A stretch of 32,619 nucleotides of DNA from Nitrospira sp. (lineage in GTDB: Bacteria; Nitrospirota; Nitrospiria; Nitrospirales; Nitrospiraceae), in NCBI GenBank assembly GCA_030444405.1, contig JARFPM010000024.1, forward strand, positions 1 to 32,619, written 5' to 3'. Shown here one piece after another: positions 24,187-27,008 of this stretch; the stretch's first letter is position 1; the number at the start of each line of letters is the position of its first letter. The notes beneath the pieces were generated by a model, which was not told the DNA's origin, searched no databases, and worked only from the letters and a program-made list of their open reading frames with translations. A program made the translations under genes and the position numbers.

Positions 24187-24199
24187 CGCACCGGTGACG

Positions 24200-25405
24200 A
24201 TGCCCATCCCACATCAGTACATTACGAGCGCACCCGCACTCAGCGAATTGTGCGAGCAACTGCGGGACAGCGCGCGCCTGGCGCTCGATACGGAATTCGT
24301 GGGCGAAGAGAGTTTTGTGCCGAAGTTGGAACTCATTCAAGTCGCGACCGAACACACTGCGGCCATTATCGATTTTCCGGCCGTTCTATCAGGGGGAGTT
24401 CTGGATGGGTTCTGGGAGATTGTCTGCGATTCGAGGATTCAGAAGGTCGTGCATGCGGGACGGCAAGACCTGGATCTCTTCGCCGTCCACGCCGGTCAAA
24501 TCCCAAAACCGTTCTTCGACACACAGATTGCCGCGGCTATGGTCGGCTTCGGCCCTCAGGTCGCCTATGCCAACCTTGTTCAACGGGTACATGGAAAGAA
24601 GCTGGACAAAGCACATACCTTTACGAATTGGTGTGCCCGCCCGTTGTCTCAAGATCAACTGGCCTACGCGCTGGAGGATGTGACCTTTTTGTTGGCCATC
24701 CACGACCATCTGCACAGCCGGCTGTCGAAACTAGGCAGGCTCCAGTGGGCTCATGAAGAGTTCTCTCGTCTTGAAGGTGTCGTGGGCGAGACTCGGCGCG
24801 AACCACAAGAACGCTATCAACGTATACGAGGATGGGATCAGCTGAAACCGAAATCGGCCGCGGTGCTTCGTGAACTTGCAGCCTGGCGTGAAGGGGAAGC
24901 GAAACGGAGAAATGTGCCTCGGAGCCGGGTGGTCCGGGATGAAGTGCTGCTTCAGCTGGCGCGTCATCCTCCACGACACCTGGATGAGTTGCGCAAAGTG
25001 AGAGGTCTCCATGCTTTAGAAATTGACCGCAACGGAGAGTCGATCCTTGCCGCGATTCAAACGGCGCTTGCGCTTCCACCCTCAGAGTGGCCGGTGCTCG
25101 CCAAAGAGCGAAAGCCTGAGCCGGAATCGAACGGACTTGTCGAGTTGCTTCAGGCGATTGTCAAGGCGCGCGCCTTGGAGGAAGAGATTGCACCGACTCT
25201 CTTGGCGACCACGGCCGACCTCCAGGAACTCGTCGATGCCAAGACAAATCGATCGACGCTGGATCTCCCACTCCTGAAGGGATGGAGACGAATCTTGGTG
25301 GGCGAGCTTCTGCTTGACGCGCTGGACGGGAAGGTCGCCTTCACCGTTGATCAACAGACACGGACGATTCGGTGGTCGCCGTCCGAGCAGACCACCGATC
25401 GCTGA
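24200..25405 (+). CDS. rnd: Ribonuclease D (DEDDy 3'-5' exonuclease, HRDC domain)
   Basis: Trims 3' ends of tRNA and other small RNAs. Exo I is LALDTEFVGE (Asp30 and Glu32 from the ATG), Exo II is VVHAGRQDLDLFAVHAG, and Exo III is YALEDVTFLLAIHDHL with the Tyr and Asp of the DEDDy class. An HRDC domain follows (~200-290, LRELAAWREGEAKRRNVPRSRV, LDELRKVRGLHALEI), then a C-terminal helical region. ATG 24200 and GTG 24194 are both possible starts, two codons apart, with no clear RBS; the gene is close behind the J-domain gene. The stop codon coincides with the edge of a dispersed repeat core copy. Confidence 0.9.
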   Translation: MPIPHQYITSAPALSELCEQLRDSARLALDTEFVGEESFVPKLELIQVATEHTAAIIDFPAVLSGGVLDGFWEIVCDSRIQKVVHAGRQDLDLFAVHAGQIPKPFFDTQIAAAMVGFGPQVAYANLVQRVHGKKLDKAHTFTNWCARPLSQDQLAYALEDVTFLLAIHDHLHSRLSKLGRLQWAHEEFSRLEGVVGETRREPQERYQRIRGWDQLKPKSAAVLRELAAWREGEAKRRNVPRSRVVRDEVLLQLARHPPRHLDELRKVRGLHALEIDRNGESILAAIQTALALPPSEWPVLAKERKPEPESNGLVELLQAIVKARALEEEIAPTLLATTADLQELVDAKTNRSTLDLPLLKGWRRILVGELLLDALDGKVAFTVDQQTRTIRWSPSEQTTDR

Positions 25406-25466
25406 GGCGCACGGCGCGATGAATAAAGAGCGCCGCGTCTGTGCGAGACGGTGAGCCGGCAGTGTC
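25405..25466. repeat. Core fragment of the dispersed palindromic repeat
   Basis: 62 bp starting at the last base of the rnd stop codon. It matches 26415-26484 nearly base for base (shared AGGCGCACGGCGCGATGAA and AGACGGTGAGCCGGCAGTG), with one 8-bp gap and a few substitutions. It lacks the terminal inverted repeats of the full element. It sits in the gap between convergent rnd and the ArsC-like gene. Confidence 0.8.
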
Positions 25467-25472
25467 CACGAC

Positions 25473-25823
25473 CTACAAGAATTTCTTGATCGAGTCCGCC
25501 GGTCTCGCCAGCATTGCCTGGTCGCCTTTCTCCACGATCGGCCGTTGAATAAGGTCGGGGTGTTTCACCATCAGGTCGAGGAGCTGATCGTCGGAGAGCT
25601 GCTTCTTCGCCAGGCCGAGTTCCTGATAGAGGTCCTCTTTGGTTCGAAGTACGTCTTCGGGAGAAAGACCCGCCTTCTTCAATAAACTTTTCAACTGTCC
25701 TTTGGTGAAGGGACGTTCGTAGTAGTTGATCGCCGTATAGGGTTTGCCGCTGTCCTTGAGCAGCTGTACGGCCTGTCGGCATGTGGTGCACGTCGGCTTT
25801 TGATAGATCGTAATGTCCGCCAT
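25473..25823 (-). CDS. ArsC/Spx-family thioredoxin-fold protein (arsenate reductase-like)
   Basis: 116 aa, the usual length for the family. AAGGAG lies 6 bp before the ATG. The N-terminus MADITIYQKPTCTTCRQAV has the strand and C12-TT-C15 motif. The conserved IVEKGDQAMLARP corresponds to the family's RPIVxxGxxA-x-(L/I)GRP segment. The CxxC form is more like YffB/Spx relatives than classical glutaredoxin-coupled arsenate reductase, and there are no ars genes around. Arsenate reduction is therefore unproven; a generic thiol-redox role is equally possible. Confidence 0.82.
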   Translation of the reverse strand: MADITIYQKPTCTTCRQAVQLLKDSGKPYTAINYYERPFTKGQLKSLLKKAGLSPEDVLRTKEDLYQELGLAKKQLSDDQLLDLMVKHPDLIQRPIVEKGDQAMLARPADSIKKFL

Positions 25824-25914
25824 GGTGACTCCTTGGTGAAAAGACGTGTCTTGACGAGTTTTTTCTGTCTATGATTAGATCGTGGTCGGTGGTGTTCTTG
25901 CAATAAGGTCCTGT

Positions 25915-26283
25915 ATGCCGTGGGTTGGAACCAGCTCCGCCGGTCAGTTCGCCTGTGCCACTGCCTCCCAGCGCACGCTGAAGGAGCTTCGTATCAAGCG
26001 CAAGGGCCAGCCGGTCTTTGTCGTTGGACATGTGCTCGCTCGCAAAGGGCAAGAAGCCACCTTTGAAGCCTTCAACGACCGGCTAGCCGTTGTGAAGTTC
26101 AGTGATGAGGGACTCGTGGGCTATGATCCGCGAGAGCTCCTCCTTCCAACTGAAATCGATGAGTATGGCGTTCCGTATTTTGAGATTCGGCCATGCCGAT
26201 CCTGCGGGATGCTCTTTCCCCTGACCATGGCAGAACGCGAGTCTGACCAGGAACCGGAACAGTGCCCAGATTGTACTGCCTGA
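25915..26283 (+). CDS. Hypothetical protein with C-terminal zinc ribbon
   Basis: No family recognised. I prefer the ATG at 25915 (MPWVGTSSAGQF, AAGG upstream) over the GTG at 25882. The 122-aa protein has a beta-rich middle part (GQPVFVVGHVLARKGQEAT, RLAVVKFSDEGLVGYDPREL). It ends in two Cys pairs, CRSC and CPDC, separated by about 20 residues, which form a likely zinc ribbon. It has no signal peptide. It diverges from the ArsC-like gene and its 3' end faces the palindromic repeat. Confidence 0.65.
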   Translation: MPWVGTSSAGQFACATASQRTLKELRIKRKGQPVFVVGHVLARKGQEATFEAFNDRLAVVKFSDEGLVGYDPRELLLPTEIDEYGVPYFEIRPCRSCGMLFPLTMAERESDQEPEQCPDCTA

Positions 26284-26376
26284 GCAGCTTGGCCTTCAGC
26301 AGCCCGTTGAGAAATTATTTTCATATTTAAGAGCACGTAGCCCTTCAGAGTGTACGGACTAAATGGGCGTAGCCTA

Positions 26377-26608
26377 CAGGATGCTCAAAAAGGCTGTCCA
26401 GCAAGGCCGCAGCAAGGCGCACGGCGCGATGAAGAAAGAGCGCCACGTTTGTGCGCGCCGGCGAGACGGTGAGCCGGCAGTGTCTTTGGAGAGGCGTATC
26501 CTTTCTCACCCGGCCCGCCCCGAGCTGCTTTTAGCAGCTCTTGCCCGGTGGTACGTTGAACCTCTGAGCGATGCGAGAACAAAGCTGGAAGTCTTTTTCA
26601 GCATCCTG
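26377..26608. repeat. 232-bp palindromic intergenic repeat (MITE-like)
   Basis: Left end 26377-26402 and right end 26584-26608 are imperfect inverted repeats of about 25 bp: CAGGATGCT at the left pairs with AGCATCCTG at the right, then A- and T-runs and GTCCAGC against GCTGGAA. Inside are a core shared with 25405-25466 and a perfect 8-bp hairpin (GAGCTGCT TTT AGCAGCTC, 26522-26540). No protein is encoded; a 133-codon open frame across it is chance. It fills the gap between convergent genes and starts 8 bp from the stop of the one at 26616. I recall similar elements in Nitrospira genomes; that is memory, not a search result. Confidence 0.8.
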
Positions 26609-26615
26609 ATAGATG

Positions 26616-27008
26616 TTAGTCGACAAAGGGCGCAACTTCCAATGCCTTTTTCAGCAGGCAATCTCCCGCAAAACCCTGTAACACCATCGGTAACATGGCC
26701 CCATCGATGGCGCGTACGGAGTGGATCCGGAATCCATCTGAAGACTTTTGCCCCTCCAGCTTGAGCGCATGACAGACTTCCAACTTTTTCCAGACCAAAT
26801 TTGACAGGATTTGATCGGAGGCTACAAGCTTCATGTCGGTGACTGATCCATCGATCGCGACCTTCGCAGGAACCCGTGTCTTGTCCTTAGGAAGCTCGCT
26901 GACGACGGCAAACGCGACAACACCCTCCTCTGCCACGGCGGATGAAGTTTTCACGACTCCCGTCAACACCATGAGAACACCGCACATGAAGATGGCTGTT
27001 TGTCTCAT
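26616..27008 (-). CDS. Small secreted hypothetical protein
   Basis: 130 aa with a clear Sec signal peptide (MRQTAIFMCGVLMVLTGVVKTSSAVA, cleavage probably before EEG). The mature part of ~104 aa contains two Cys (CHALKLEG near the middle, GDCLLKK near the end) that could form a disulfide. No family recognised. It diverges from citrate synthase across 164 bp. The RBS is weak (GAGA). Its stop is 8 bp from the palindromic repeat. Confidence 0.65.
   Translation of the reverse strand: MRQTAIFMCGVLMVLTGVVKTSSAVAEEGVVAFAVVSELPKDKTRVPAKVAIDGSVTDMKLVASDQILSNLVWKKLEVCHALKLEGQKSSDGFRIHSVRAIDGAMLPMVLQGFAGDCLLKKALEVAPFVD

Follow-up and report, generated by a model that had tools for sequence, protein, structure and literature searches.

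A composite palindromic repeat between convergent genes of Nitrospira sp.: a probable old copy of an IS5-type MITE carrying a structured module

Related repeats in other bacteria

Insertion sequences (IS) of the IS5 family and their miniature inverted-repeat transposable elements (MITEs) are the described systems closest to the repeat reported here, and two papers give the IS5 target duplication as Py-T-A-Pu (PMC5493358) and as YTAR (PMC10359306). The Nitrospira element resembles these YTAR-targeting elements in having the same ends as an IS of its own genome, a 4-bp YTAR duplication in its family and no transposase of its own, but it has only the ends in common with that IS (by eye), contains nested modules and abuts stop codons to an unusual degree. 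Another likeness is found in the ERIC sequences of enterobacteria, which are about 127 bp long and have a target different from YTAR. As portrayed in PMC10969869, ERIC is a repeated, mostly intergenic palindrome with tens to hundreds of copies, some of them at gene 3' ends, like the Nitrospira element, although it belongs to another lineage and is likened to ours by description, not by sequence. PMC10969869 also gives precedents in other bacteria both for repeats at gene 3' ends and for repeats that insert into each other, the latter being BOX, RUP and SPRITE of Streptococcus pneumoniae, some of them terminator-like; compared again by description and not by sequence, they differ from the Nitrospira module (MOD), which nests in the loops of its own copies. 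REP sequences with their TnpA-REP transposase are short extragenic hairpins in many copies, according to PMC6006769, whereas MOD has 71 nt and three stems, is not directly preceded by GT(A/G)G and was not seen adjacent to Y1 genes in 25 of 96 loci. Among the titles and abstract openings listed in a literature search, no publication deals with this Nitrospira repeat; Nitrospira moscoviensis occupies one table row of PMC12306157.

Composition of the palindrome at 26377-26608

The window analysed is a stretch of 32,619 nucleotides of a Nitrospira sp. contig. A sequence-only reading of it had described 26377-26608 as a palindromic, non-coding element with imperfect inverted ends, a shared core and an internal hairpin, possibly a non-autonomous mobile or structured repeat. 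The imperfect inverted ends of about 25 nt were borne out, and the element folds better than chance: 26377-26395 and 26590-26608 form arms of 19 nt with 89% complementarity, which the fold lengthens to about 25 nt, CAGGATGCTCAAAAAGGCTGTCCAGC pairing with GCTGGAAGTCTTTTTCAGCATCCTG. Shuffled sequences average -87.8 kcal/mol in minimum free energy, while the element itself reaches -111.7 (z -5.1; 0/200 shuffles equal it), and the opposite strand folds with a z of -4.55. The internal hairpin is present at 26522-26540 as GAGCTGCT-TTT-AGCAGCTC, and the shared core is real, since a 28-nt block at 26417-26444 is repeated with 1 mismatch at 25407-25434, where 0.00 such repeats were expected. A search of the genome to which the window belongs (G000, 3.46 Mb in 170 contigs) gave 52 matching pieces, so the element is not single-copy. 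The supposed lack of a transposase inside 26377-26608 agrees with our gene calls, which place no gene there and come from a simple, unbenchmarked codon-score script that may err at individual loci; there is also a mechanical ORF at 26363-26764, which overlaps the palindrome. Rfam gave no match at the gathering score within the window, and none up to E 5 in 26340-26640.

At least three repeats, all read on the forward strand, make up the 232 bp that the sequence-only reading had described as one element: a MITE core, a separate module with its own structure, and another insert that bears a hairpin. The left end of the core hairpin (26377-26402, CAGGATGCTCAAAAAGGCTGTCCAGC) covaries with the right end in a set of 72 distinct end pairs, and the right end, or right terminal inverted repeat (26584-26608, GCTGGAAGTCTTTTTCAGCATCCTG), resembles the ends of the IS5-family IS described below. 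Left and right arms of the core were placed at 26386-26416 and 26551-26599 by blastn of a short-form arm against the collected loci. Within the left arm lies MOD, a 71-nt module of three stems (26416-26486) that shows paired changes and matches covariance model R1 with 97.6 bits, being itself one of the 12 sequences from which R1 was built. The further insert (26491-26550) holds the 8-bp hairpin of 26522-26540 and is common to copies on contigs C99 (two), C42 and C146. Upstream, 26300-26376 is tentatively a degenerate outer arm (UP), beginning with CAGCCCGTTGAGAAATT, which has 4 mismatches in 17 to CAGGCTGTTGAAAAACT; it was recognised by eye against full copies, was not detected by the UP pattern used on family copies, and may belong to the composite as a fourth arm.

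The element is flanked by two convergent genes, the upstream one at 25915-26283 on the forward strand (ORF 25882-26283) and the downstream one at 26616-27008 on the reverse strand, with its stop codon at 26616-26618; neither has a Pfam match at E 0.001. A lone second MOD, also among the 12 sequences of R1, lies on the forward strand at 25406-25468, immediately behind the stop of ORF 24194-25405; another 4 nt separate it from where the opposite gene 25473-25823 has its stop.

Origin, target and placement of the core family

The plain form of the family is a core of ~124 bp made of left arm, right arm and pairing ends, to which many copies add a left outer arm of roughly 65-80 bp beginning with CAGGCTGCGGAAAAAC or similar; copies of ~200 bp with the outer arm are taken as the full element, and their ends read CAGG(C/A)TGCGGAAAAA. 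The end sequence CTTTTTCAGCATCCTG, allowing up to 2 mismatches, occurs 51 times in the own genome against 2 for a reversed control. Core matches were found in 34/39 genomes of the genus and order, own included, the counts per genome being lower bounds with at most about 22 candidates scored in each. Shorter stretches of ~139 bp between two outer-type ends CTAGCAGGCTGCGGAAAAAC were also seen, e.g., in G012 (C4 196186-196324); the ends CTAGCAGTCTGCTGAAAAAC of another such stretch, in G006 (C40 222041-222179), match those of the IS in loci L254 and L442.

Target duplication was assessed in 78 distinct copies, comprising 31 from the own genome, 35 core loci of relatives and 12 MOD loci of relative G016; copies identical in both 30-nt ends were counted once, those with no recognisable left end were left out, and the outer-arm pattern used also misses degenerate arms such as that of L057 (by eye). 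Identical 4-mers stood on both sides in 12/78 copies, against a shuffled mean of 4.3 (0/2000 shuffles as high), leaving 66/78 with no identical flanks. Where the left 4-mer was non-palindromic (n=65), 8 direct repeats were counted versus 1 reverse complement, and YTAR was found at 45/78 right ends but at 22/78 left ends. A 4-bp YTAR target duplication is thus shown for the core family. In the window copy the right end is followed by ATAG (26609-26612), at the place where other copies show YTAR, and its left counterpart is CCTA; the duplications that the sequence-only reading had named as a check exist in family copies, while the window copy does not have an intact one.

A transposase with matching ends, the other thing to be sought, was found in the own genome, where an IS on C169 (L253, 57838-59160, reaching the contig end) carries CAGGCTGCGGAAAAAC at both ends and has unequal flanks, TTAG and CTAG. 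Its transposase of 374 aa matches NCBIfam NF033581 'IS5 family' with 277 bits (cut-off 140), and Pfam DUF772 and DDE_Tnp_1. Relatives of this transposase were recovered at 17 loci from 10/39 genomes, compared with 34/39 genomes for the core; 16 of the loci hold at least one CAGGCTGCGGAAAAAC-type end (up to 2 mismatches), for which a single-end background rate was not computed, and 7 hold both, the latter having identical 4-bp flanks in 4/7 and unequal ones in 3/7. Full-length MITE copies have the same CAGGCTGCGGAAAAAC as their outer end, the right end alone being clear in the window copy, and MITE and IS have in common just the terminal ~16 bp (by eye). Because this same-genome IS5-family IS has matching ends, the core family is, as judged by sequence features, a lineage-specific IS5-type MITE showing the testable features of that class. 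The IS701 family was also considered as mobiliser and was not supported, PF13546 being found in 2/20 genomes, with the own genome not among them.

The orthologous site was located by a query joining both flanks and was fetched for 13 relatives, in 8 of which the convergent stop codons are separated by 11-18 nt with no element. Relative G016 has 17 nt there, including CAGGATG, which may be a scar or the state before insertion; G006 and G011 have another sequence whose last part resembles the right arm, and in G021 the site is taken by a long palindrome of a different kind. In G019 a plain core occupies the same point with neither MOD nor hairpin insert, so that the simplest order is core first and MOD plus hairpin insert later; loss of the two in G019 is the alternative. 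Taken together, the many copies, the family target duplications, the element-free sites and the IS with matching ends support a non-autonomous element that is at once mobile and structured.

We hold the following account, as a whole, to be quite probable. The window element would be an old copy of a MITE; to go by the common ends and target, an IS5-family DDE transposase would act in trans on its family. Its core sits between two convergent genes where most examined relatives have nothing, and MOD (71 nt) and the other hairpin probably entered that core afterwards. Insertions in the family are found for the most part at the 3' ends of genes, where many touch the stop codon; by their long hairpin and the T-runs on either strand, copies may terminate transcripts or make them more stable; and MOD would spread separately, by a hairpin-dependent route. 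Weighing against the account are the doubtful outer arm and missing intact duplication of the window copy, the unequal flanks of most family copies and of the C169 IS, the scarcity of YTAR at left ends, the shortness of the sequence common to MITE and IS, the narrower distribution of the transposase, and the differing contents of the site in G006, G011, G016 and G021.

The placement at gene ends is marked. The stop codon of an incoming gene lies within 1 nt of 34/48 right ends and, with the outer UP arm recognised, of 7/35 left ends, so the idea that the core's right end alone abuts stops was rejected. Gene 5' sides abut element ends in 0/29 and 0/42 cases, and 40 abutting ends were seen versus 7.7 expected with uniform placement in each gap; copies identical in the last 60 nt were counted once in the early comparison of stop adjacency. 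This adjacency likely arises because YTAR often contains a stop codon that the duplication keeps intact: as YTAR contains TAR, duplication at a stop would leave the gene whole. The excess of right ends at stops would be due to worn outer arms.

A rival explanation to which we give somewhat less than an even chance holds that selection maintains the copies as functional bidirectional transcription terminators or as stabilisers of 3' ends, and that mobility is just how they arose; it is compatible with the MITE account. It would explain the abutment on stop codons, and it agrees with a run of at least four Ts near the right end and an A run near the left end in 68/78 copies, and with their strong folding (median z -4.8 with 30 shuffles each; 74/78 below -2), which make it possible that core copies serve as bidirectional transcript ends. 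It is also favoured by the gap of the lone MOD (25406-25468), between convergent RNase D-like (24194-25405) and ArsC-like (25473-25823) genes, which different palindromes fill: beside the lone MOD of the window, the core in three of 13 relatives (G001, G019, G011) and an inverted core in two (G018, G012), with other or shorter sequence in the remaining ones and no MOD match at this place in any of the 13. Selection for the structure is further suggested by the core ends, which covary, with 54 both-side changes against 10.4 in shuffles among the 72 distinct end pairs. The window site, however, is element-free in most of the relatives, the target duplications show real insertion, and a terminator scan of 26200-26750 found no short-loop terminator in or around the window copy.

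The paired changes in both the core ends and the MOD stems have a second reading, which we regard as unlikely: arm-to-arm correction, i.e., template switching at quasi-palindromes, could alone make them, with no structural selection. Long palindromes are known to undergo such correction. It should nevertheless erase mismatches, and at position 10 (26386 and 26599 in the window) the core ends keep a C-C mismatch in 63/72 pairs among neighbours that change pairwise, for which inheritance from few founders is a possible cause. The core pattern itself could come from hairpin selection or from such inheritance. The 27 pairs of outer arm and right end give a weak signal of 8 against 4.5, with 14/1000 shuffles as high; position 10 is G-C in 25/27 of these pairs, suggesting the outer arm as the true terminal repeat.

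The nested three-stem module

The covariance model of MOD has three stems and was built from 12 own-genome copies. It finds at least 17 matches in the own genome (E up to 0.5, with 150 of 2051 candidates scored) and at least 34 in G016 (E up to 0.01), and MOD occurs in 12/39 genomes, own included. When 84 distinct sequences are aligned, 95.1% of cells are paired, with both-side change in 15/17 pairs, and the covariation score is 0.459 versus 0.155 in shuffles and at most 0.085 when slid, figures that come from an alignment fitted to the structure in which related copies count repeatedly. The first 12 sequences score 0.417 against 0.138 shuffled, with 2/5 measures overlapping the shuffles (further pair types, 164/500; both-side-change pairs, 8/500). 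A weak match, L048, was left out of alignment A1; it lies in what we take to be chaperone-gene-like sequence.

The flanks of 76 MOD copies were sorted by simple patterns, 10/86 matches (weak, partial or duplicate) being left out. The left arm of the core holds 23 copies, the right arm 11, loop B of another MOD 2 and loop C of another MOD 6; the 34 found elsewhere include degenerate arms, short matches, stand-alone copies and some missed nested ones. Whole modules within the loop of another MOD are seen in L137, L145, L059 (850-1350) and L159, as well as in L144. Considering the 69 copies of at least 60 nt, MOD mostly follows CGA (26) or TGA (16). Its boundaries are provisional, since a loss of about 4 bases seems to separate filled from empty forms in the arms, in loop C and at the C47 site.

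A pattern scan of a collection of 84,980 species gave 95 MOD stretches, and 78 of the 80 listed are labelled Nitrospira, Nitrospirae, Nitrospirota or Nitrospiraceae. The pattern also occurs in two metagenome-assembled genomes (L336, L382), one labelled Acidobacteria and one Chloroflexi, through wrong binning or transfer. In G030, from another family of the order, a shorter MOD-like repeat (L098, L107, L113) has a near-identical preceding flank, ...ACATGAG. MOD copies in G021 (L101, L168, L169) have a different common flank, GAGGCGAGG ... GGGTGATTTC, and apparently belong to another repeat family.

A tentative proposal, to which we give well under an even chance, is that MOD is itself a mobile DNA unit, probably single-stranded on insertion, which would enter after CGA or TGA in palindrome loops (its own included) and after stop codons, driven by a yet-unrecognised transposase. 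If so, the ever larger nested hairpins of Nitrospira would result from repeated insertion of MOD into itself.

A spread as REP or REPIN-type repeats by a Y1 (HUH) transposase (TnpA-REP, RAYT) would suit a short, hairpin-rich, multi-copy module that lies partly beside stop codons, and the own genome holds one Y1 gene; a Y1 match is present in 11/12 MOD-positive genomes, the exception being the marginal G026, and the CGA or TGA before most MODs recalls the CnGA foot that PMC6006769 reports for the atypical hairpins of Class 3 Y1 genes. We consider it quite improbable, as GT(A/G)G directly precedes MOD in 0/76 rows, 13/27 MOD-negative genomes hold a Y1 match too, which makes the co-occurrence weak, and the core shows, in place of REP features, ends like those of IS5 together with YTAR duplications. 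The MOD-model scan of 25 of the 96 Y1 loci had a best E of 0.34 and no convincing MOD, and Y1/RAYT was not supported as the mobiliser of MOD.

The sequence-only reading was right in kind, and the core represents a known type of element in a lineage-specific form; the self-nesting, covarying MOD is the part that deserves further work. The natural series of plain core, core with module and module within module gives natural material for studying the entry of structured repeats into hairpin loops. Nitrospira, which are important as oxidisers of nitrite, have these repeats at the 3' ends of many genes. If the copies end transcripts on both strands, an element derived from a parasite would be shaping gene boundaries across the genus.
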